Shown: in pieces, positions 7,486 to 46,650 of the stretch
Position numbering within the stretch: the first letter of the stretch is position 1
Layout of the letters: every line of letters begins with the position of its first letter
NCBI GenBank assembly: GCA_018902385.1
Contig: JABSSW010000014.1
Location: 620,001 to 684,000, forward strand
Reading direction: 5' to 3'
From: Physcia stellaris
Lineage: Eukaryota; Ascomycota; Lecanoromycetes; Caliciales; Physciaceae
DNA length: 64,000 nt
Made by a program: the position numbers and the translations under genes
Notes under the pieces: generated by a model
Database searches by the model: none
What the model was told of the DNA's origin: nothing
What the model saw: the letters and a program-made list of their open reading frames with translations, nothing else

Positions 7486-9900
7486 ATGGACTCACAAACC
7501 GAAAGCACTACGCCGAGACTTTTGGCTCCACATACCCCTGCTAGGGCTCCACAAGACCTCGTCAAGCTTGGAAAGGTCCAAAAAGTGAAAAGAACCCGAA
7601 TGAACAAGGCGAAGCAAGGCCGACCCCAACATTTATCAGTTTCCCAGAAGCGGAAGCTCGTCAGATTATACATTTATACCAATCTATCACTGGATGCGAT
7701 TCGCCAATTGATCGAGCATTTTGGCACTAGAAAAATCCAGTAAGAAGCTGGAGCTCCGTGTCGGTAATGTTGCTAATTGAGACCTTAGGAAGCGTGCGCT
7801 TCAAAACCATTTGAAAGATTTATTTATTGACCGTTACAACATGCTGCGTCCTGGAGGTGCGGAAGCTAGCCATGAACGCATATTCCAGGTTCGACTTTGC
7901 AAAACTTCAAAAAATCGTCGTCACAGCATCCAGGAATCGTTCGAACTAGAATCCCCCAGCCCATATCCTGTAATCAACTTTCCTGGTAGCATTCCTGGTC
8001 AGAGTGTCATGGATGTGAATAGCAGGCCTTGCGAGGAGCTAAAAGAAATATGGACAACAGAGAACTCATCAGAAACTCGGACTTCTGTCAATCACATGGA
8101 GAGCAGCCTCGACACCAGCCACAGCTCCCTAGATTGGGGCCTTGCAAGCGCATCAAGTACACTGACGGCTGAACATAGCTATGTCTGGACGCCGCACGAC
8201 GTTCAAGAACTTCCCTCGAGTTCTGGCCAGCTTCTCGCTCCGGTCGAAACTGTTCTCCTCACGTTTGATGACCCTTTTATGGGAGTAACTGACAACGAGA
8301 GTCTAGATCATCTGCTCTCTAGACGACAGGAGATGGAAGCAGGAAACACAATGGAAACAGCCACAGAGCTGTCTCTCGCCAATGATGACGATGCGTCGGC
8401 TATTAAGCTGTCACTCGGTCGTGAAATAGGATCTCATTCTGGGACCAATAACACCGATTGTAGTGCCTTTAATTCCCTAGGGACAGAGCCTCACGAAATA
8501 TCATCCAATACTTTGCCCTCAAGACCGTTTCCCAAGCGCATTCAGTCAGACAAAGGGAATAAAAACACGAATACTTTCAAAAGCAACCAGATCAAGGTCT
8601 ACGATTCAGGCTCGAAGAAGTCCGATTTGAAAGCTTTGATATTCTCCAACACAAAGTCCTTCAGTGAAGAGAGAGATTACATTGAGGAAATCATAACGAC
8701 TTTCTCGATCTCAACCGGGTCTAATCCAGGTTCTTCAGGAAGATCTATCTCAGGTTTGCCAACCGGTCGTGTTTTGGATCAACCAACAAGCTCCAATGTC
8801 TCACATCGCCAGCGATACCTACAACCACGCGCGTCTGTTCTAAGTCAATTAACAAGGTCGTACTTATTCGACGACGACGACGATTACCCATCAATTGTGT
8901 TGCCAGGTGACTATGACCACGTCCAAGGCTACGCATCAATAGGTTATAGGCCTACCCGCGAGGAGAAGCAATGGATGCCTCAATCATTGCATTGTGAAGA
9001 TTGTGTTCCGTTTTTTTCTCAGCCTATGTTCGGCATGTTTCAACTTTTTTTGTATAATCAGGACGTCGGATGGTCGGACAAGTATGGTATACGTCCCTCC
9101 ATGCTGCTGCCGCTTTAGGTGCCTGTTATAATGTCCTGTTATACATTATACGCTCTGGCGTGGATGTTAATCGGATCAACGCAGCGGGACAAACTTTCCT
9201 GCATGTCCTCAGGCGACATGATCTATATGAGTGGGATAATTTGGTGACGAAAGTGCGTGAGCGAAGGAACGGTGAAGCTTTTCTATATGCTCTTAGTCAA
9301 CATGGTTTGAATGAGTGGAGTAAGCTGGTGAGGGAGCTAGAAGAGAGAGGTTACGACTTTAATCATCGTGATGTTATAGGTCGAACGGTTTGGTATTTAG
9401 TTCCTCTGAGCTACAGGAATGAGCTGTCGGTTATTCTCCAAAACTTTGGGATTACCCCGGACTTTGAGTATGTCAAAACGCAAGTGATCAGTCACATTCG
9501 CTCATCATTAACTAAGGACACAATTGAGGACCTACTCCGCGGAGGGGCCAACATCAATGAACGAGACGAGGGAGGTCAGACACCGCTACATGTCTCCATT
9601 ACATCAGGAAAACCCGATATAACCGGAGTCCTCCTCAGCCATAAACCTAACCTGCATGCAAGGGACGTTCAGGGCAAGGGCGTGCTCGCAGCAGGCCAGG
9701 ATGCTCTTCGTAGAGCAAAATCCAATGCTAGCATGTACGCAAAGATCACCGCATGCATGACGTTAGCTATCGATGCTGGTGCGATTGCAGAGCCAACCTC
9801 CCTCCATGAATGGGGGCTTCCGAACTACAAGTATTGGCCGGGGGACCCTACTCAGCCTCGAGAAACCATGCATGGGAGCTGGCCAAATATACAGAATTAG
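7486..9900 (+). CDS. Clr5-domain / ankyrin-repeat protein with a one-base frame break
   Basis: Exon 1 (7486-7739) and a 49-nt intron (GTAAGA donor, GCTAAT branch site) lead into a long exon ending at 9900. Residues about 55-105 form a Clr5 domain, a helical putative DNA-binding module of fungal regulators named after Clr5. It has KRKLVRLYIYTNLSL, then the conserved HFG...IQKRALQNHLK. The middle is low-complexity and Ser/Asp rich. The C-terminal third has ankyrin-like repeats (TSLHAAAALGA, INAAGQTFLHVL, EGGQTPLHVSI). The frame changes at 9086-9090, inside one ankyrin repeat: DKYG ends one frame and TSLHAAA continues in the next. One extra base, for example a third G at 9086-9087, restores about 788 aa. 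The intact consensus on both sides argues against an intron there. Confidence 0.75.
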
Positions 9901-33031: not shown

Positions 33032-34806
33032 CTATGGCCATGACCGCGTCGCAATCGCCACTCTGCAAGGAAAACCATCAGCCGGACGAGTAGTGCCTTT
33101 CAGGACCTGATATGCTCTCTCCCCATTTACAGCTCTTGCTCCCTTTCTCTTCTGATCTTGATCGCACACATCATAACTAGCCTCGATGCTAAAGTCTCTC
33201 AAGGTCATCACCATGACTAGCTTGAGCTCTAACAATGCGAGCTCTTGGCCGACGCAGTTGCGCGGCCCAAATTCAAAGGGTCGCCACGCTCCTTTTACGG
33301 GATGTAGAGGATCATCCTCAGAGACAAGCCAACGTTCAGGTATGAATGAATCCTGCTGCGGCCAGTACATTCCCTCCCTGTGCATTGCTTGGTGCGTACA
33401 CCAGACGGTGAACCCTTCGGTCGGATACATGTGGCCATCCTGCGCCAAAAAAATCCTGGTTCGCCATCACGTGTGGTGGAAGCAGCTGGGAATAGTCTCA
33501 GGGTTTCCTTAATGACAGCGAGTGTAAATGGCAACCGATTAAGCAAATGTGGATTTGCTGAGATTATATCGTTCGTTTGTGTGAGGTCAAGCCCGAAAAC
33601 CTTGTCGTGCTCCGCTTGCACACGTTCGAGAGCCGAGGGATTGCAGGATAACAGGTAAAAGACATAACAAAGCGTCGAACTAGTCGTGTCGTGCCCAGCA
33701 AGAATGAATACCTTCATCTGGCTTATAGCAAAGCTCTTGAATTGTGCGTCCATGTCACGGGCAGTGTGGGTTGGTGACTGTTCCTCGACATATTTATTGA
33801 GAGCAAGATCAACGACCGTTTGATACCGACAGTCTTCTTTTGCCGCTGGACGGCCGGAACCTTGGTGGGCCTTGAAGCAGATCTCAAGTTGGCGGTCTAT
33901 GTAACGATCCATGGCTCGGACATAGTACCACTGAAAGAGAGGGCGAAAAGGGTTCCACCGGACAAAAGGATTCATTTCCGTGCCGTACAAGTTCCACGGT
34001 ATTTGCGCGCGGAGTGCAGAGACGAATTCGTTCCTTGAACTTTGCGAGTTGAAATGGGTTCCCCTGTACAATTAGTAATTGGAGACGACACATGGTCGAT
34101 GACTTACAACACAATTCTTCCTATGATATCCATAGTCAAGTTCACGGTGACTTCTTCCAGCGGAAGGATGACCTCTGGTTGCGCACGTTGCTTTAAGATG
34201 TCGCGGAAGACCGAGACTTCCTCTAATATCTCAGGCACCAGATGTATAAGGTGGCTTGCACTGAACCCAGGATTGTAAATGTTACGCCAGTGCTTCCAAC
34301 TATGACCTTCCAGGCTCACGAGATCCCGATTGTTAGCCAAAGGCTTCATCCACCGGTGAACTTCGGGCGATTTGCACAGTGAATGCTCCTGAATGAATTG
34401 GTTTGCTACAGATGGTGAGGACACGATAAGCATAGGACGATTGAATGGCCACATGTCGAGGTAGAAGACTTGGCCGACATCGGGGATGGCTTGTCTTATT
34501 AGCCCAGGCAAGTAGGAGGGATGTGCATCTTGAGGAAGCTTGGATAGAAGGTCATTAGCCAAAAGTAGATGTCCAAAGAGTGGATGATGAGGTGGCATTG
34601 ACTATGATCAATCAGTGCGTTGCTCAGTCGTGCACCATAGCAAGATCGAAAAGGCAAATCCTCACCAAGCCTCGCCTCTTCAGCCTGGTGAAACGGACGC
34701 GTGCGCTGTAGAGCTTGAGCACAAAAATGGCCGAAAGAGTTAAGCACGCAATGAGCAGTCCTTGCTCAAGATGCTGAACGATTCCTGGTCCAATTTCGAG
34801 GTGCAT
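33032..34806 (-). CDS. Cytochrome P450 monooxygenase, one-base frame break
   Basis: Exons are 34806-34666, 34601-34108 and 34063-33032; introns are 64 and 44 nt. About 555 aa after adding one base. An N-terminal membrane anchor (LLIACLTLSAIFVLKLY) is followed by a basic stretch and PPHHPLFGH. The I-helix AGHDTT (about 334-339), the KETLR of the ExxR motif (about 397) and the PERW motif precede the heme loop FEFGPRNCVG with the cysteine ligand near 482. The pattern is that of microsomal fungal P450s acting on lipids or secondary metabolites; the substrate is unknown. The frame changes at the seven-A run 33447-33453 (plus strand), between the ExxR and PERW regions. One additional base makes all three exons sum to a multiple of three. 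No cluster partners are adjacent. Confidence 0.88.
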
Positions 34807-35682
34807 ATTGGCATCTGCAATAGAGATGCAATAGAGAAACCTTCAAAAATTAGCCTGGGAATCACAGAACCAGTGAAAGGAGATGACATGATAATTACCG
34901 TCAAGCCAAGGACGTAATGGTGGTGGAAGGTGAGTAGAGCGCATTCAAGGTTTCTCCACTGTATCTTATTGAGCAACAAGATAATACTAGTATCTGTATG
35001 GTGATCCGTTACAAAGCTGGAGTTTTTCGCGATAGCCGTACTCAGTCAACACCCAAGGTAGATCGCAGTCGTTAAAATAGCTTCGTAACTAAATGAGAGT
35101 CGCTAGAAGTGAAAGGCAAGTCCGTTGCTATTATCGTCTAATGAATCGTATCATCTGTTTCGCTTGAAGTACTCCAGGCAGCAGCCGATTGCGGAAAGTG
35201 TCCGCATTGGCTCGAGCCTTCTTCTTTCTTCTGTCCCGTCACTAAAATACCCCAACCATAGGTCTCTTGAAGACTATCAACTCTACACGAGCGTACACGC
35301 TTCTCCTTCTATTTGGGTGCCGAAATCCTTCTTCCATAGGTAGACGAGCCGCCCCAGCTACTGTTCCATTTCTTCTCCAAGACCGAATCCGACGACCCAC
35401 AAATAATTCAGGCCAGCGACCGCGAATACTAATCCTGAAGCAACCCCTTCTTGTTCTAGATGCGTTGAAGTTCGATAGCTCCTCGACACTGTATCCTTTG
35501 ATTGCTCACTGGGACTGTACTTGCTACGAAAATTTACAGAACAGTCTGCGTTCTGCCGAATATACGCAATTACATTAATATGACTACCTTTCAATAGGAT
35601 GGCCCACTGCTGTTGGTTTTGACACTGCTGTGGTCCCAAGCTCAGTGTCCTCACAGCGCGCGACTGTGACTTTCGCTACAAG
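34807..35682. other. Intergenic between divergent P450 and HET genes
   Basis: About 0.9 kb. Short frames upstream of the P450 start show no supported upstream exon. I see nothing else. Confidence 0.45.
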
Positions 35683-36856
35683 ATGCGTCTAATCCACACC
35701 TCAACCCTGAGCTTCCATGAATTCCTTGGAGATCACAATGTTCCACTCTATGCAATTCTGTCCCACGTCTGGGAAGAAGAAGAAGTCTCGTATCATGACT
35801 TCGCAACAGCAGAGTCACGTAAGATGAAGGGGTATGAAAAGATTAGACGCTGCTGTGAGCTGGTAGCGTCTGAGGGCTTCGAGTACGTCTGGATCGATAC
35901 CTTCTGCATTGACAAAAAGAGTAGCGCCGAGCTATCTGAAGCTATTAATTCTATGTATAAATGGTATAAAGATGCTGGAATTTGTTATATCTATGTGGCT
36001 GACATACCATTCATCCGATAGTAGTTCCCAAAAGGATATGTGCTCGCTGGGGATGCACGTTTCCGATGATAGTTCTCAAGAAGATATGTGCCTTTCACCA
36101 TTGCTCTCAGATGCTTTGCCTAGCCGCCAAGGAGCAATCGAGCACAAGAAAATCATAGAAAGTCGATGGTTTAGCAGAGATTGGATGTTACAGGAGCTTC
36201 TAGCTCCGCAAGCTCTTCAATTCTTCAATCAAAAGTCCAGAACTGGCTGAAAATTGGAATCCGGAAAAGCCTTGCGGACCATATCTCCACAGCTGCTGGG
36301 TTCGCTTTTCCTCCAATAGCTACAAGTGTTGACGCAAAAATGTCCTGGGCACCTAAGCGAGAGACTACAAGGCCCGAAGACATAGCCTACTGCCTTCTCG
36401 GGCTTTTTGATGTTAACATGCCTCTTCTATATGGTGAGGGTGATAAAGCTTTCCTCAGGTTACAGCAAGAGATCATCAAGTCCTCGAACGACCAATTTAT
36501 CTTTGCATGGACGAGGGAGGACTCGTTATTCAACGGCATAATAGCATACTCCCCAGCCGACTTCAAAGATTCAACGGATGTCATGCCCTGCGAGATGCCT
36601 GGGTTACCGCAATCACCATACTCCATCATGAACTTAGGGATTCGAGATTGAACTCGCTCATACCCGGGAGGACAAATTAAAGTCACAGCTCTACTGGCCC
36701 GTAATTCTTTCCTGTGTAAAGAGTCCGCTACTTGAAGGCGGTGACGTGGTTACGCTCCAACTTGCCAGGAAAGGAGGCGACTGTCGTTACATGAGTAGGG
36801 TGTTCCCGAATCGCTTGAAGTTGATTTCCAAAGCCATGTACAGTAGTAGTAGATAA
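35683..36856 (+). pseudogene. HET-domain (heterokaryon incompatibility) protein gene with three frame changes
   Basis: The ATG at 35683 opens the classic start MRLIHTSTLSFHEF. It is followed by the HET hallmarks PLYAILSHVW, a CCELVASEGFEYVWIDTFCID block, and then RWFSRDWMLQELLAPQ and RPEDIAYCLLGLFDVNMPLLYGEG. HET domains act in fungal non-self recognition and regulated cell death. The frame must be changed three times to follow this homology: one base too many at about 36010-36011, one too few at about 36245-36246, and one too many near 36646. The last stop is at 36856. The mixed signs and low-run context make decay more likely here than a sequencing artefact. Two short Asp/Ser-rich segments around residues 112-140 repeat each other (SSQKDMCSLG and SSQEDMCLSP), inside the HET region. 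Confidence 0.75.
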
Positions 36857-37710
36857 TAATAGCAACGCAACGTTTATATATCAGCACGGAAGTCGTCTCG
36901 TAAAGTCTCAGGGCAACGCCGCAGTAGAAGCAAATCGAGCAGCTCTCATGCGAACCATTCTCTCTGTCTAAGCGATCGAGTACGAAATTGAGAAAACGAG
37001 ATGGAAATAACCCTGCGAGAGGAGAAGAGTAACATGTGAGAAAATCCGTCAGCTAGATTATGCGATAGCGATTCAACATCGAAATCTCTTGATATCGTTT
37101 CTCGCTTATTGCATTTGCATCTTTGTCACGCATGACGACAACCTCCGTAAGCTTGCTATTGCGAAAGCCTTCTACTTCGTCCGGTAGCGTCTGTTTTGTG
37201 CAAACATTGAGTCCCTAATCAACGCGCGATCTGAACATCAGTCTCTTGAGGCGAGAAAGAAGGTAAGATGTACCAGTCGCCAGGCCAGTTTCGGAACACA
37301 GTCTGTCTCCCTTAAGCCTGCATTGCGATTGGGGCTAGTCTACTATCGGACGCAGTAAGGTATGCTCTACGGCGTAAGCTCTTGGGATAAACGTTTTGGG
37401 AAATGTAACAGGCACAATGAGCGCTGTGGGAGATGTACTAGGCATGATAATTTCGCGGCTACCTATCGTATCTGTTCTATATGGAAAAAGCACACTTCTG
37501 ACGACAAATCATAATATCAAGCCAAATAATCCATTGCAAGTAAACGAGTGGTACCTATCGTATTCAGATTTGTGGAAAAAGAATAAATCTGACGCAGGCA
37601 ACAATATCAAGTAGAAAAATCATGTGCAGGTAAGCGAGTGGATTGCAACTTTCACGAAAAGCATGTTCAGCCCAGCTGCAGTTGTCACAGCTTTTGCTAA
37701 AAAGGCTGAA
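36857..37710. other. Intergenic with a diverged tandem repeat
   Basis: About 0.85 kb between the HET relic and the 3' end of the first helical protein gene. No coding sequence is seen. It carries the 37460-37641 repeat. Confidence 0.45.
37460..37641. repeat. Diverged tandem direct repeat, two units of about 90-92 bp
   Basis: ACCTATCGTAT starts units at 37461 and 37553. Both continue with TATGGAAAAAG/TGTGGAAAAAG, AATATCAAG and end in TAA(A/G)CGAGTGG. Units are about 75 percent alike by eye. A smaller about 30-bp repeat lies just upstream (GGGAAATGTAACAGGCA and GGGAGATGTACTAGGCA). Confidence 0.65.
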
Positions 37711-39025
37711 TCACTTTGTGCCAGCCGCGGTGATTTCATCGGGGTTCTTCTGAGCCTGTTCTGCTAAGAAGCGCTGGACTTCTGCCAGATTGGGGTCATC
37801 ACCATGGTAGACGCCAGCGGTGAGCCTATCGTAAGTGGCGCACTCCTCCCAAACGACGGCGTCAGTAATACTGGCCAAATTCTGCGATTAGATTAGCAAC
37901 CTGTCCGGTTTGCGATGAGTCTTGGTCGTCCTACCTTTTCGTGGTCATTCATGTAGGTTTGGCCCTGCTTGTTTAGAATTTTTGCCTTTTGCTCCGGGGT
38001 CAAGCCAATGTTGTCATCGTCATCGGAATTCACAGTGTCATACGAGGATGCCATCGCATACCATGCAGTGTACAGCGCCTCCGTCTGTTTAAACTGGTCA
38101 AACTGCATCTGGACGCTGAAACGGTCGCAGAAGAAATCGTGGATGGCCCTGGTTGCAATTAGTACGGTTTCAATCGTCGTAGCTTCGAATGGCTTGCTTT
38201 ATCATCTGCTCCCTCTGCGCAACTTCAACAGTAAACTGTGTGAAGACTACTGCAATATCCAGAACGAACGCCCATTTGGCAACGAACTCAAGGACCGTGT
38301 TGAAAATGCGAAGAACCCGGACTGCTCGGGCGGTCTTCGATGTAAGCTCACCTAGAAATTGATAATGCTGCCGAGCCCAGCGGGCCACGCCTCGCATTAC
38401 GCGGGTGCCCTCCTGGAGTTGGCCTATGCTTATGTTAATATATTGTAGATGTCGGTACCGGGAGAGGAGGAGTCACCTGTAGCGAACAGTTTGAAGCCCC
38501 GAGCGAATTCTGCTCGGAAAATTCCCTCCCCACACACCGAGATAACCAGCCTCGCTGTGCGATTCGAGTCAGCTGGAGTTGACTCAAGTAGTAGAGGGCA
38601 GGGCACTCACCATTACCAGTGAAGAAACGAAGGCCACCAGCTATACCCAGCACGCACGTAAGGACGGACGATGCGTTGCCGAGGAAAACGTCGGTGTCTT
38701 GAAGCGCCTTCATCAAATTGAGATACTGGTCGCGTTCACTATCTGGCAGAGTGGCTGCAATGGAGTCTGAAAGCTCCTGGATGGTCTTGAACCCGCTCTT
38801 TTTCATCATTTTGTCGCGGATTTCATCGATATGCCCCGCTTGTGTTGAGATGCGGGTATAGGACTGGGCACACAGGCCTTTGACAGTACCTATGTTGTTA
38901 CTTAACTGCTGAACGCGGTCGTAGCGGCCCCGATTATCTGTGGAGAATCGTCAGATGATGCTATTTCGAAGGGGATAGGAGATCTCTGATGTTTACAAAC
39001 CTGGGAAGAATAGATTTGAACTCAT
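37711..39025 (-). CDS. Helical protein with two hydrophobic segments; paralogue of the gene at 42388; one frame change
   Basis: The five exons are 39025-39001, 38937-38611, 38554-38477, 38423-37935 and 37881-37711; all four introns (53-63 nt) have good donors and acceptors, for example CTGAC or CTAAT branch sites. About 362 aa. The first exon is only 25 nt. The protein is alpha-helical: a long helical N-terminal part, a hydrophobic stretch at about residues 97-116 (VLTCVLGIAGGLRFF), further helices, and a second one at about 192-212 (WAFVLDIAVVFTQF). A charged helical C-terminus follows. The N-terminal part aligns by eye with the gene at 42388 (both begin with a Phe-Pro-Asp-Asn motif). One extra base near 38184-38185 is needed to stay in frame. 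I know no family name. The layout resembles membrane-inserting helical bundles, as in alpha-pore-forming proteins, but that is only a structural analogy. Confidence 0.65.
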
Positions 39026-42000
39026 TCTGAGGAGTGGAGAGGCTCAAAGCGTCCTGTAATCTGTTGAAATGTTTCCGAATAAGGATGACAGATTTGAGTC
39101 GAGTTTGATGTTTGCACAGCGAGCTTAGAGACCAGAAACTTCGTATGGAAGCGGCGTTGGGTAAATAGAATTGTATCACTTGAAGGATCAACTACAGATC
39201 TGCTAAAAGGTATATATACAAGCCCATTCTGGCTTATTAATCAGGGGACCAGCTCAGAACACGAGGACGAAATACTTGGTGTTCTGGGGCCCACCTTACT
39301 TCGTACCAGAATCTCGTATCCATAGGCTTTCTATTGGGGCGCCTGCAATGATGTTACCTGGCCTGGTGGGCAGGATGATCCTTGACGTTTCCAGTCGGAA
39401 GAAATACTCAACCTTCCACACCCTTGAAGGATTGCCCGGCATTTGAAGAGGTATAACGAACAATCTAGAACGCCTAAGTGAACACCGTAGTCCCTTAATG
39501 ATGGCTCGCTACGCGGCCGTCTCTACTTTCCATAAATTGAGACGCTTGTTGTGCAACGATGGATTGGCCAGTGATGTGCCACCAAGGTCTAGATCCAATT
39601 TTGGAGCACGAAGTTCGTCCTATTTGAGCATATCACAGATAGTGGACGGCATGGTGTCGCATCCCAAACTCGTACTTGAAGAGTGATTCCCAATTGAGAA
39701 TCGGCGTGCACACCAGCTCGTGTACCATTCAGAACAATATGCGTATCGGGTCGCGTATCAAGCTGGACACAGCTACAGACTGATGTAGCATGATGGAGGT
39801 GCATGAAGACTTGCATTTCATTTGCTTGCACACGGCAGTTCGCATTCTCTAGTTCCCCGATTTACCGTTAGACGAATGCGGGGATACAGCCTACCTGCAT
39901 TGCCCAATTGCAACGTTCAAGGTCAATGAGAGTTATTAGTGCTGCTTTCATCACCGACTTGTTCTTGCAGGTACAAGAGAAGCAGACAGCGATGCACAGC
40001 TATCTGCCCCCTACGTCTCCGTCAATACAACCTTCGTCACGCGTACCATAGGTCCATAACAGGCCGAACGCAAGCTTATAATTGAATGGAGGCTTGAGAT
40101 GAGAAGAATTCACGTGATTACGATACATTAGAAAGGGAAGATCCGTGAGGAAGACGGCACGAAAGGAGAGTGACAAGAAGTTGACTTATGCACTGGTTGT
40201 AAGGAAGGTAGATAGCGGTGGTGATTGGTCCCGGTGCGACTCGGCGTCAGCGCACGCAGGTCCAACCGGCAAGAAGATCATCGCGCGACCGATGTACGAA
40301 GTAGATGTTGAGGTTAATAGTTTGATGAAGCTGCCAAGATACAGTAAAATACATTTCCCGGCCAGTAGTAGTGAAACGCGGTTCCGGGAGTCCGGCACGG
40401 CTCGGCTACTCTAAACGGCTTACCGATCCCCCGATGGCGGTCCGCGGCTAGGGTACTTAGAGTTAAGGTAGCAATGCCAATTCGTACTACTTACCTGTCG
40501 GAAAATAAATGCATTAATACTACACTACCTCCGTACTTGAGCTGTTCTGCTTCATCCCGCATGCTGACTGCTGGAACGAAGTCAGCCTTGACACACTGCA
40601 ATGCACCCTCCATGCTACTTCGTATCACAATCCCGCATACGTAGAACCTTTAGCCTGCATGCAATCCGTCTTCCTCTCACAAGCGGCTTGCTCGCAGTCT
40701 AGATTAGTGTGGCGTACTCCTCAACAGCTCGCTTCGATGGCATTCAATGATTTACCTACACATGATTGAAATTTATATTACGATTCCACACTCAATCATC
40801 CGCCAAGAGCAAGCTGCATACGATACGCTGATGACTATCGAGTCACTTCTCGACTCTTCACCGTTCTTATCATTGATCATTGGTGCGCAAGGCACATGTA
40901 CCCAAGCCCCCGCGAGGCTTGCCCACCCTCCGGTGACGCTGGGTGCAGTGGTGTGAAGGTGGCCTCGTATTCCCGTCTGATCTGCAGCATCATGCAACGC
41001 CTTCTTGCATATCTAGATCGGGTGAATAGTAGTGAGTGGTTGGCCGGCTGTATGCGCTGGCTAACACCCCTCTTCCTCCCCTCTTCAGAACTCTGCATTT
41101 ACGAGACTTACTGCAGTCATGAAGCTCAAAAAGCGCGCTAAAACGTGTCAGAAATACGCTTTCAGAGACCAGAGCATCGATCATCTGCTTTCGCGAGTAG
41201 AAAAGAGACGTACGTGGTAAGATAATCAATGAAGGGATGATGAAATCGAGGTCGAGGAGATCGAGAGCGGCACGAGGCGCGGAATCGACTTTCGCCTCCT
41301 CCTTCTCTTCGATTCATTCTCAACACGAAGATGCATCGTTTACATGCAACGGCGACGATGACTAGCTTCTCACTCCTCGGCGACTAGGTTTATGGCGTAT
41401 GGTACTTCGTAGAAGGAAAATCCAAGGTTGTCTTGTCGAGCTTGCAGACGCCATGAAAGGATTCTGAGATTCACGATTTTCGTTTCAATTTGCTCACCCA
41501 ATTTGTATGCGCAGAAAGCAAAATCATTCAATGATTTCATCAATCATCTATTATTGAGTCTGAATGCCGTGCTGATCTTAGCATGTATTGAAAGTCCATT
41601 GGCAATGTCATCTTCAGTCGTCTATTTCTTTTTGTGCTTGGTTGATGGAGGCTCGATACAACTTACTATGGTAGAGCCATCGGAGCTGATGGAAGGACTT
41701 CAGAATGAGCAGACGCTACGACTCTAGTCTGGCTCCCAAATCAAAAAACAGTCTGCCTCCTACGGATTACCGTGATGTAGCGTCATCAGCGTGCAGCTCG
41801 TGGATCACGTTGGATGGTGTGTTCACAGGCGTGGGATATGGCTCACTCATGTGGCTTACGCGCCGGTGATAAGGGTAATAGTCACCGTGCATAGTCCCGA
41901 TGCGACTTGTATTTGCAAAAGGACATTTGGACCGAATGGGCCATCATCTTGAATCATGCAACACGATCATCCGGTCCTCGGATGACTCACCGTTCAAGAG

Positions 42001-42387
42001 GCATCGCGATTTGGTCGCTTCGGCATCTCAGGCATTATGTGCAGATCACGATTAAACGCTAGAGCTAGATCTCAGCTGAACCTGGGCTCAGTGGCTTGGA
42101 CCTCGTACGCGATCAACACTCGTATTCTCTGCAGCTCGTGGGGGTTAGCTGATCCCACGGGCTAACACGTACCTTATGACCGTACTTCGATGTCTAGCGC
42201 CTTGACGTCCAACACCAATACCTTCTGCTACCGCAGTTGCGAGAACTTGGTGTCCTGGATCTTGCTCGCCCACTTGTGTCTTCTGGCTTAGAGATTTTGG
42301 CCCTCCGCCGTGTGTATATATTGGCGACACTTATCGTGGTACGTTAGATCAAAGACCAAGTCGACGTCCTATGTGAAAACCTCGACA
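39026..42387. other. 3.4 kb head-to-head spacer, no gene seen
   Basis: This stretch lies between two divergent helical-protein paralogues. Open frames are short and overlap on both strands. I see no transposase, no RNA gene and no recognisable relic. It is too long to be a simple shared promoter. Confidence 0.5.
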
Positions 42388-43503
42388 ATGGCAAACGCCA
42401 TCGGAGACCTTGCCTTTCCCGACAATGTCAATCGACGAAAACGTGCAGGCGAGCTCCACGATGATATCGTCACATTTGGTGCCAATTTTCAAAAGCTATT
42501 GAATGAAAGGTATGTCTGCAAATGCCCAGTCCTTATTCTATATCGCGATTGACTCGCTGCCTCAAAAGGGCGCAAATCAGCGCACGTCTGAGGCCCAAGG
42601 TGAAGGCATTGCTACACAAATTCCACATTGCAACGCCCTCGGAGCTTGAACAGCGCGTGAACAAAAGCCTTAATTCCGACCAGATGCAGGAATACCGTCA
42701 GCTGAAGTCGTCGTAAGCCATTTTCCTGCTGCCGCTACTGCTGTGCGGCTGAAGACTGCCAAATGCTAATCATCTTTCCAGGCTTGATAAAAACGACGAT
42801 TTCCAAAACATGCTCTCGTCTCTTATCGACGTTGGCGCAGTAGCCAGCGGTGTAGTGATCGGAGCACTCGCTATTGGTGGTGTCATTACGGCTGGAGCAG
42901 CCTTTGCTGCTGCTGGAGACATACTTGCAATACTGGCCGCAGTCGTCGTCATCGTTGGCCTCTTTGAGGCATCAGAGGAAAGGGAGGTAAGCATAGGCAC
43001 AGCAAAATGGACAACTCCAAATGTTTATCACATGAATAGGAGCTAAGGAAAGCAATTCGAGACCTGTGGCCTAAGCGGCAGCAAGTCAGACAGGCGCTGG
43101 GACAGATGAACGTCATTATGGACTGGCTTAAGACTATTGGTAAGTCATGGCGACTCTCTTCCATACTCTTTGTGTTTACTCCTAGTGCAGAAATCTGGGT
43201 TGAAAACCTTGAGCATGCGTCGTCAAAGCTCGTGGATGTCCTAGTCAAGAAGACCGTGAAGCAAGATTACGCCGAGTGGACGTTGGAACATACGGCTCAG
43301 GTGGGTCCTTATTTGGGGGACGACTGTCCGAGCAATAACTGACCCTAATGTAGGTCCTCCTCGAGCTAGACCAATCTCGGGCATCATGGATAAATGAGGA
43401 CCCAGGTCATGATATACCTGATGATGTTGGTTCGTTTTTACCCAAGATCGATCCATTCAAGTCGACTGGTGGAGTTCTGGACTTGATTGGACATATATTT
43501 TGA
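42388..43503 (+). CDS. Helical protein with central hydrophobic hairpin (276 aa); paralogue of the gene at 37711
   Basis: The six exons are 42388-42509, 42569-42712, 42782-42986, 43040-43139, 43191-43300 and 43354-43503; introns are 59, 69, 53, 51 and 53 nt. Phases agree and total 277 codons, with no frame break. Residues 1-100 are amphipathic helix. Residues about 104-150 are a long hydrophobic, Gly/Ala-rich region (starting VGAVASGVVIGALAIGG and ending in AILAAVVVIVGLF), long enough for two transmembrane helices. Then a charged helix (REELRKAIRDLWPKRQQV) and a helical C-terminus follow. There is no signal peptide. Similarity to the other gene covers the N-terminal helix and the post-hairpin helix (REELRKAIRDL against REQMIKQAIR). 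I cannot name the family. Confidence 0.75.
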
Positions 43504-44566
43504 GGCAATATAGGCGTCCTAGGGTCAACATTTAGCGATCATTCCTTGGCCAGGAAGGGTGGACGAAATCCAAACTTTTGAACGCTCCTACATGAGATTC
43601 AAATGCAGGGTTGAAACATCGACATCGCTATATGAGTGTAAGCAAAGGGAGCAGCGATCATCGCCGTACTTCGAGGCCTGCCTAAGCCACTACGCCATCG
43701 CCGTAAATATTTCTTCTCTCTTCAGACTTACTGCCCTTTGCCACACTCGTCCAATTCAAATTATCGTACAGCATACGTCACCAATGTCCGGAAAGTGTTC
43801 CAAACCAAAGTGAGCAAACAGTTGTACACTAGAGGGAATGCCGCTATCGCCCGCACTAGACTTGTAGATTCCAAGTTCCCAGCCCCTCCCGCAGTAATGA
43901 AAATCTGCTTAAGACTCTTATATCGCGCCATCACACGAAGAGACGGATGGGTTTTCTCAGCCTCTCATCACCGTCTCAGACCCTCAGTGTACCTTGGTAA
44001 CATTGTCATCAATGATGACAGAGAGTAGTGCTAAAGTGGCACGAGCTTCTACGCGTAGACACCCATTGCCTCGCGACGACACATTGTCCAACAAGTAAGA
44101 GATTTTCTTATTGAAAACTCTCTACGAGTGGCTTCGACCCTTGTATTACTATCCCGAATGACCGACTGTAGGAGACCGAGAATCCTAATCGAGTAACAGG
44201 TGATCAATACATAAATACACCACGAATCTTGGGCATTGAGCAAGATTCGAAAAGCCATCATAAATCGAGATATGCAAAGTTGACGACTCATTCTGGGATT
44301 GAACAAAGCGTGCTCGGTCGAGTCTCCATTCATCAGCTGCCTATTGGTATTCTCTTCATCGGGGTCACGGAGCGGTCGCCCACATAGACATACTCCAAGC
44401 AAAATCGCATCCATTGCTCACATACAATTGAGTTCAGGGCTTTCCCTGTCTCTTGGCTCGCAGGCAAGATAATCACACTCTCGATAATTGCGAGTGATGC
44501 TTTCGGGGACACCCCTTTCGCGCGCCGAACCTGTGTTTTGGGCTATATGGACATTTTCACCTCCTG
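43504..44566. other. Intergenic, no gene seen
   Basis: About 1.1 kb. An 84- and a 96-codon frame here look random. I see nothing supported. Confidence 0.45.
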
Positions 44567-45067
44567 CCGTTATCAAGGATCTCCTTGACGCTGGATATGG
44601 CCGTAGAGAAAACATTTGCAGCTTCCTGGTTTCTACGATAGTACAAATCAACGGATCTGATTTCATCGCAGCAGTGAAATGGCGACGTCATTTATTACCT
44701 ATGCTGCTGAGCTACAGCCTACGGACAGGCATTAGAGTGCGAAGTTTGCTTCGGCTTTACAGCATTACTACATGCCCTCGACGGCCGAGAGCAGTTACAC
44801 GTAACGGCCAAAGCCTTGATCTAGGCTGGGGATAATGTGACGAGAAGAACCAAAAGTGGGCTTACACCGCTAGAAATGGTTGAGAGGAGCATTGGCCTCA
44901 AACACCCAAGATGGCCGATGGCTTCGAGAACGCCAGAGAATGATGGGACAGAAGGAGAAGTTGACAAACACAGATATGATTCGGTGACGCTCGACGAGGA
45001 TCTACTTGCCTCTGACCAGCTCAGGAGTGCATTAAGGCAGCAAGGAGCTGTCTCAACGAGAAGCTGA
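44567..45067 (+). pseudogene. Decayed ankyrin-repeat gene fragment
   Basis: Short ankyrin-like blocks occur in order but in different frames: VIKDLLDAGYG near 44570, FGFTALLHALDGREQLHV near 44755-44800, AGDNVTRRTKSGLTPLEMVE from about 44825, and a terminal LRQQGA near 45045. In the third frame a TAG at 44822-44824 stands where a Gln codon (CAG) would fit, a C-to-T type change. Another stop lies upstream, before the FGFTALLHAL block. There is no start codon or complete repeat array. It is most likely a relic of an ankyrin gene of the kind often found near HET genes. Confidence 0.5.
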
Positions 45068-46650
45068 TTACAAGGTACCCATTCTGTCCCGCCCCTTTCC
45101 GATTCGATTTGCGTGTTATTATTCAGATATGTGTGGCCAATCTTTAGTGAAGCTTCTTTGCTTACGAATTGCGACCAGGTTTGTGAACGCGATGTGAGCG
45201 CTTCAAGTTCAGGACTTTTCACTACTGGATCTCGATTCCACCTCGAAGATTACAAAGTCAATCTCTGACAAGCTTTCTCATAGCCACGGTGGGCTCAATA
45301 TTAGTAATCCGTGTGCTTGTATTAATCAAGATATAGGAAAGTCTCTGGAGAAGGCCGAACGCCACAATTTCGATCATACTCCTGGTGCCAATCTTAATTG
45401 CATTGATTCTACTTATCGCATGAGTAGAGACGCTACTTTGAAAATTACTTTCTAAATTGATTCCTGGAACCATCAGGACTATTCTCAATCGAATATAGAA
45501 AGGTTACAATGAAACAAACCGCCCTTTACGGTGGTCACACCGTTCATTTGGGTTTCGAAAACCGTTCAACGGTGCAGTGGGAAAATCTGGCAAATAAGCA
45601 CCAACACAACTACAAATAAACCTCTTAACCACCTCACGGAACACGGTATCTACTATTCACTATACATTTTAGTTTCCATCGTTCTACGGTATCGAAAAGG
45701 AATCAACCGCGAGAACATGCGTCGAATACGAGTAGATCGATTACTATGTTGAGATGCCGGAAGGCGTTGATGGATCCTGATTATTGGAAAAATGAACCGG
45801 TCGTCTATTCCAAGGAAGGGTAGTCGGTTATACCCAAAAAAGGCGTTAATCTTTCTGTGCCATGTGGCATTGGGCGGCCTTAAGATCAGGAGACATAGAT
45901 CTTCCCAAATTGAAGAATCGAAATTCGGTATCAATCCGGTAAATGTGCAGTTCGATTCAAGATGGTAGGTGAGCAAGATGTAGACAGGTACGAACAGGTA
46001 TGACCCTAAGAGAACCCCGATACACCACTTTATTACCCTTGGTTACAGAACAGGAATTTACATTAGATTCATGGTAGGTCTACCACGACTTTATTTCTTT
46101 TTCGATTGAATGCCATTATTGATCGTTCTAGATCCCGCTGGTATATCATACGAACTTGTCAAACAGCCGTTGTGAAATTGGCATCTCGAGCTGACAGCAA
46201 TGGAAATGCAAACAAAGAATGTGTGGTTCCTCAGACGGTACAACTTCGCCGTGGGCGTGGCCAAGAGGCAAGGGTCGAAGAAGTATGGGTTGAAGGTCAC
46301 TTGGCATGGCTTTATGCCGTGGTGCACAATACCTATCTCGTTTTCTAGGGCAATGATCGAGGCAGAAGCTCTGTTTTGTGTGGCACCATTGTCAAAGACC
46401 CCAAATTGCCAGATGATTGAGGTCGGTCTGGTCGGTTCCGCGCCTAATGATTCCAGAGGCGCTTCAGTACTATCGTAATCCGTTGGTTTTCAGAAGACAC
46501 ATTATTAGCAAGCGACTATGCGAGTAGCAGTGTATTGTCATGCGACAGCCGCTTAGCCCTTCGATAACCGGCACGGCCGCCAATCATTATATATTCGGTA
46601 GACAAGTCTACATGATACTTTGCCTGAAAACAACCTCACAAATCTTCAGA
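45068..46650. other. Intergenic, no gene seen
   Basis: About 1.6 kb. The best open frames (46106-46478) overlap each other and show no recognisable features. A TATATA string near 46590 may serve the downstream gene. Confidence 0.45.

Follow-up and report, generated by a model that had tools for sequence, protein, structure and literature searches.

We describe a pair of genes for putatively helical proteins in a 64-kb window of the Physcia stellaris genome (C14:620001-684000, the whole stretch of DNA that was analysed; the genome comprises 43,974,083 bases in 147 contigs). The two genes, here called helical genes 1 and 2, lie head to head with their starts 3.4 kb apart, between the remains of a HET gene and a putative ankyrin relic, and a promoter-like element precedes gene 1. 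What had been suspected to be fragments proved to be two intact spliced genes, and the gene models convert them into full-length, testable proteins. Positions below are those of the window.

37711..39025, minus strand: helical gene 1, 346 amino acids, six exons (39025-39001, 38937-38611, 38554-38477, 38423-38198, 38148-37935, 37881-37711); open spliced frame, coding score 0.142.
42388..43503, plus strand: helical gene 2, 276 amino acids, six exons (42388-42509, 42569-42712, 42782-42986, 43040-43139, 43191-43300, 43354-43503); open spliced frame, coding score 0.164.
42782..42986, plus strand: the gene 2 exon encoding the hydrophobic stretch, recognised by hydropathy; predicted single helix.

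The models were built by hand and their splice sites verified by script. All five introns of gene 2 are GT-AG, as are four of those in gene 1; the fifth (38197-38149) is GC-AG and carries, close to its end, a branch sequence resembling CTAAT. The codon score was trained on six frames of the window, which score 0.089-0.171 on themselves and 0.060-0.109 when held out. The scores of both helical genes exceed this held-out range, none of 1,000 letter shuffles was as good for either gene, and the intergenic DNA (39450-42300) reached at most 0.081 in 300-base stretches read in six frames. Because high values are also obtained antisense to the two genes (0.107 and 0.115, with the antisense of held-out frames reaching up to 0.092), the codon score favours coding but alone leaves the strand unsettled; the open spliced frame settles it.

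The two genes are paralogues at their N-termini, as had been proposed. Over about 107 N-terminal residues the predicted proteins are 26% identical (blastp E 6.3e-5 for the single pair), with the string FPDN within the common start, and the local alignment score of 72 compares with 33.6 +/- 5.0 for shuffled sequences, none of which did as well in 1,000 trials. Further downstream lies one weaker, collinear and ungapped match of 41 residues (REELRKAIRDLW with REQMIKAIHDFF; REELRKAIRDLWPKRQQV with REQMIKAIHDFFCDRFSV). This downstream match was reached by 49 and 70 of 2,000 shuffles over two wider C-terminal tests, and by 8 of 2,000 in a region that was narrowed post hoc, once the match had been seen. 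The alignments thus suggest that the genes are perhaps paralogous along their full length.

Both predicted proteins begin with hydrophilic sequence, the top 19-residue Kyte-Doolittle values in the first 30 residues being -0.75 and -0.73. The expectation of strong hydrophobic segments held for gene 2, in which residues 99-155 form a hydrophobic stretch of two runs with maxima of 2.25 and 2.6; the weaker segment of gene 1 (residues 186-205, maximum 1.81) is moderate. Gene 1 additionally encodes a strongly amphipathic, arginine-containing region at about residues 146-168 (moment 0.76). Single-sequence AlphaFold2 models of one exon each gave helix only for 108 residues of gene 1, at a low-confidence predicted local distance difference test score (pLDDT) of 52.8, and one helix without a hairpin turn for 68 residues of gene 2 (mean pLDDT 79.9). 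These models are too weak or short for a fold and bear on secondary structure only; they suggest that both proteins are probably all-helical.

The helical pair probably represents an orphan family, judging from searches of sequence libraries. At E <= 5, Pfam gave gene 2 weak matches to six families and gene 1 no match at all, with HeLo and HeLo-like domains absent from the matches. PF17111, which is named PigL_N in the Pfam copy used and presumably carried the HeLo-like name formerly, has 32 matches elsewhere in the genome, 26 of them above cut-off. All Pfam and NCBIfam matches of the pair fell far under curated cut-offs (the strongest, to BLOC1_2, had E 0.0072 and 17.1 bits where 33.4 are required), and a sequence search of the PDB gave eight chance-level rows for gene 2 (E 0.62 or worse) and none for gene 1. 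In these three libraries the pair has no significant match. In PHROGs, a library without cut-offs, tape-measure proteins matched best, at E 0.0031 for gene 2 and E 0.081 for gene 1; the former may be the kind of match that hydrophobic helical proteins can yield. No relative was confirmed in prokaryote genome contigs, in viral contigs (where gene 1 was never the sole query) or, with gene 2 as the only query, in plasmids. Among the papers listed in literature searches, none on fungal homologues of ClyA-like proteins was recognised.

Relatives within the P. stellaris genome were equally elusive. In an own-genome protein search at E <= 10, gene 1 had no match outside the locus and gene 2 had two weak ones, on contigs C4 (E 0.012) and C46 (E 9.3); the sensitivity of this search is limited, as gene 2 went undetected with gene 1 as query and equally diverged members would escape. 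The C4 match was considered as a third family member and is taken as chance: it covers the hydrophobic part only, and the opposite strand there holds a longer open frame (by eye, among frames of at least 60 amino acids). Profiles and single sequences were also run over the window and 40 of 54 extracted loci; the other loci (L009-L020, L024 and L030) lie in or overlap the locus, except for L014 and L015, the two weak matches just named. Outside the locus this search gave nothing beyond the inclusion threshold, the best match having E 0.13 (at L050) and the next E 1.8 or worse.

We tentatively favour, at somewhat less than even confidence, the reading that this is an intact orphan pair of paralogues for cytosolic, probably all-helical proteins that insert into membranes conditionally. 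It builds on the open spliced frames, the coding bias, the N-terminal paralogy, the hydropathy profiles and the lack of a hydrophobic N-terminus, from which we infer the steps of insertion. The hydrophobic stretch would lie buried inside a helical bundle until a trigger or oligomerisation released it into a cell membrane from the cytosolic side. Gene 2, with its long hydrophobic stretch, would encode the main inserting partner and the amphipathic gene 1 product a diverged accessory partner, with membrane damage or remodelling as the likely outcome; the HET gene would be a decayed neighbour, dispensable for function. Several points weigh against this proposal. The searches found no homologue and the models gave no confident fold, the C-terminal paralogy is weak, and the long hydrophobic stretch would equally suit an ordinary integral membrane protein. 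The hydrophobic parts of the two proteins are very unlike each other, which makes a shared mechanism uncertain. Additionally, a sub-threshold match beside another HET gene, on contig C38, would, if real, favour a link to HET genes.

It is also quite possible, if short of probable, that these are ordinary lineage-specific orphan genes for membrane-associated proteins, sitting in a gene-poor stretch with accessory-gene turnover to which the HET pseudogene likewise belongs, and having no cell-death or pore role. That the libraries searched gave no relative is consistent with this, as is the setting of gene 1, whose upstream element recurs before two other genes, as accessory regions might show.

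39138..39396, minus strand: dispersed non-coding, promoter-like element with a TATA-like core, on the upstream side of gene 1 and separated from it by 112 bp.
L021:3958-4194, L022:3915-4132 and L023:3897-4009: copies of the element outside the window.

Within the window copy, TATATATA ends 185 bp before the gene 1 ATG. The other copies, on contigs C68, C36 and C49, are 72-79% identical to it. Three of the four copies precede an open frame that runs in the direction of the element, namely gene 1, an AMP-binding gene resembling those for nonribosomal peptide synthetases (NRPS-like) and a Spherulin4 gene; the spacing is about 117 bp to the first ATG of the NRPS-like gene, by our own reading, and about 106 bp, measured from the conserved part, for the Spherulin4 gene. 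The fourth copy shares its locus with a gene for a TRI5-type terpene synthase but does not directly precede it. Searches seeded with the other three copies recovered, of the element, the window copy alone. Possibly the element is a promoter that was duplicated. Beyond the copy at L021, on its far side, a sequence of about 85 bp (L021:4211-4296) recurs at nine further places (L031-L039) with 76-85% identity. Against the ordinary-genes explanation stands the retention of both diverged paralogues, intact and with five introns each, which argues for a selected function.

The HET gene beside the pair is frame-broken in the present assembly, in accordance with the original prediction.

35683..36018, plus strand: HET pseudogene piece 1, HET profile positions 1-87, closing at an in-frame stop; coding score 0.119 in its own frame.
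36002..36247, plus strand: HET pseudogene piece 2, in a different frame, profile positions 95-146; coding score 0.126 over 36003-36239.
36250..36648, plus strand: HET pseudogene piece 3, in the first frame again, stop-free; coding score 0.095.
36638..36853, plus strand: possible HET pseudogene piece 4, in a further frame, a HET-like tail judged by eye.

The Pfam HET profile (PF06985) matches the open stretch 35623-36018 with E 5.6e-12 (46.7 bits against a curated cut-off of 22.5) and the open stretch 35867-36247 with E 0.015, under the cut-off. The two parts of the domain thus lie in different frames with stops between them, and the coding bias shifts frame and then returns. Pieces 1 and 2 weakly resemble other HET loci of the genome, with best E values of 1e-5 and 4e-4 among the eight loci compared. 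For piece 3, the open stretch 36175-36648 has no Pfam match and a 15-residue match (E 0.85) to one of these eight loci; piece 4 matches neither Pfam nor any of the eight. The gene is broken in at least two places, whereas both helical genes are intact. Introns as the cause of the breaks were rejected by eye because they would delete conserved HET residues or require an intron of about 27 bases; the breaks may be sequencing or assembly error. Within piece 2, close to the first break, lies an imperfect direct repeat of 30 nt (36014-36043 and 36062-36091, 83% identity, spacing 48).

The ankyrin relic proposed on the far side of gene 2 was not confirmed.

44711..45064, plus strand: putative ankyrin relic, unsupported.

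The ankyrin resemblance is by eye only: no Pfam match at E <= 1 was obtained for the stretches 44488-44832, 44711-44821 and 44825-45064, nor for the second and third of these joined with an X at the stop. Codon scores are low, at 0.040 for 44711-44821, although this is the top value among three frames, and at 0.044 for 44825-45064, where the other two frames score higher (0.108 and 0.111). No further match elsewhere in the genome was obtained for 43510-46500. A genuine ankyrin-repeat open frame lies elsewhere in the window at 9058-9897 (Ank, E 6.6e-10), and the genome holds at least 179 ankyrin matches. Together with the spliced genes and 55 HET matches, these point to a filamentous ascomycete. 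Beyond the HET gene, pieces of a cytochrome P450 occupy two frames at 33295-34601 (Pfam p450, E 8.9e-17 and 2.3e-6), with a heme-type motif at 33277 in a third frame; therefore this P450 gene (33277-34601) may be spliced rather than a relic. ARAGORN found no tRNAs.

A third explanation makes the locus a partly decayed HET module, in which the HET protein had a sensing or signalling role in non-self recognition and the helical pair executed cell death; we consider this unlikely. A profile search of the contigs found 55 HET matches, which merge into 54 loci (1.23 per Mb), and a random genomic point has a chance of about 1.2% of falling no more than 5 kb from such a locus. The HET remains lie about 1 kb from gene 1, a closeness that is uncommon yet was singled out after the fact. 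Contig C14 (788 kb) carries five HET loci where 0.97 would be expected (Poisson P 0.003, uncorrected for 147 contigs), which we did not use as evidence.

Co-occurrence of the helical family with HET genes, which the original prediction had put forward as a check, did not emerge: at the 19 of 53 other HET loci that were searched (11 with about 5 kb per side, 8 with 1.5 kb), and in 40 kb flanking the window, there was no significant relative. One sub-threshold lead pairs gene 1 residues 119-140 with L050:4757-4822 on contig C38 (11 of 22 residues identical, 50%; E 0.13). Downstream of this stretch, at a distance of 13 bp, lies a truncated HET match that is missing the first 47 profile positions. 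As one of 40 shuffled gene 1 queries scored as high (best 11.7 bits against 10.8) and four queries or profiles were tried, the match is not significant; it is a lead in favour of the module, not evidence. The allorecognition link thus consists of the closeness of a single broken gene and of this sub-threshold lead, and the HET gene next to the helical pair is probably incidental. Of the accessory island originally envisaged, an unnamed helical membrane-type pair beside a decayed HET gene is supported, and a functional allorecognition module, with its HET gene broken and its ankyrin part unconfirmed, is not supported.

Known recognition loci do have adjacent partners. The neighbour of het-S is described as encoding the NLR NWD2 (PMC4344463), and het-S/NWD2 and het-B (PMC10890737) are described as loci at which two different genes act in recognition, one of them a HET or NLR gene, an arrangement that our locus would share. 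Unlike these loci, ours has a broken HET gene and a hypothetical role in recognition. In Neurospora crassa, lineage-specific orphan genes are reported to cluster with HET-domain genes (PMC10684091). Similarly, domain-less orphan genes adjoin a HET gene here; unlike those clusters, the HET gene is broken, and none of four telomere repeats matched contig C14 exactly, which gives no sign of a subtelomeric position.

The proposed insertion also invites comparison with helical cell-death proteins. Like the HeLo and HeLo-like domains exemplified by HET-S, our proteins are predicted to be helical and soluble with a membrane-inserting segment. Membrane insertion of HET-S is attributed to its N-terminal ~34 residues (PMC3531502); unlike HET-S, the proteins described here have hydrophilic N-termini, an internal hydrophobic stretch and no Pfam match. 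The fungal cell-death proteins treated in a recent review belong to a small number of families, namely HeLo-type helical bundles, gasdermins, HET/TIR-like domains and NLRs (PMC12881547), and a helical NLR effector domain has been described as solenoid-like and more than 500 amino acids long (PMC9815663).

Quite improbable, in our view, is a eukaryotic version of the two-component alpha-helical pore formers of YaxAB/XaxAB or ClyA type, acting in the producer's cytosol or freed by lysis, for although two diverged, apparently helical paralogues lie adjacent, gene 2 with its long hydrophobic stretch and gene 1 with its amphipathic segment, and neither has a signal-like N-terminus, and although YaxA and YaxB are themselves given as merely 22% identical (PMC5935710), there is no significant sequence match to solved structures and no usable fold model, and the likeness is one of topology only. 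In YaxAB, two diverged helical partners are described as jointly forming the pore (PMC5935710), and the adjacent coding of such partners is shared, as would be their internal hydrophobic or amphipathic helices; unlike YaxAB/XaxAB, our genes are spliced fungal genes, arranged head to head 3.4 kb apart. We give a similarly slim chance to the boldest reading, in which the genes belong to an undescribed fungal family of two-component alpha-helical pore formers, lie beside a HET gene and act in regulated cell death or conflict.

If the conditional membrane insertion that we tentatively favour is true, the pair would represent an additional helical family without a HET-S-like N-terminal insertion segment. 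If it is false, the locus would hold another pair of orphan accessory genes.

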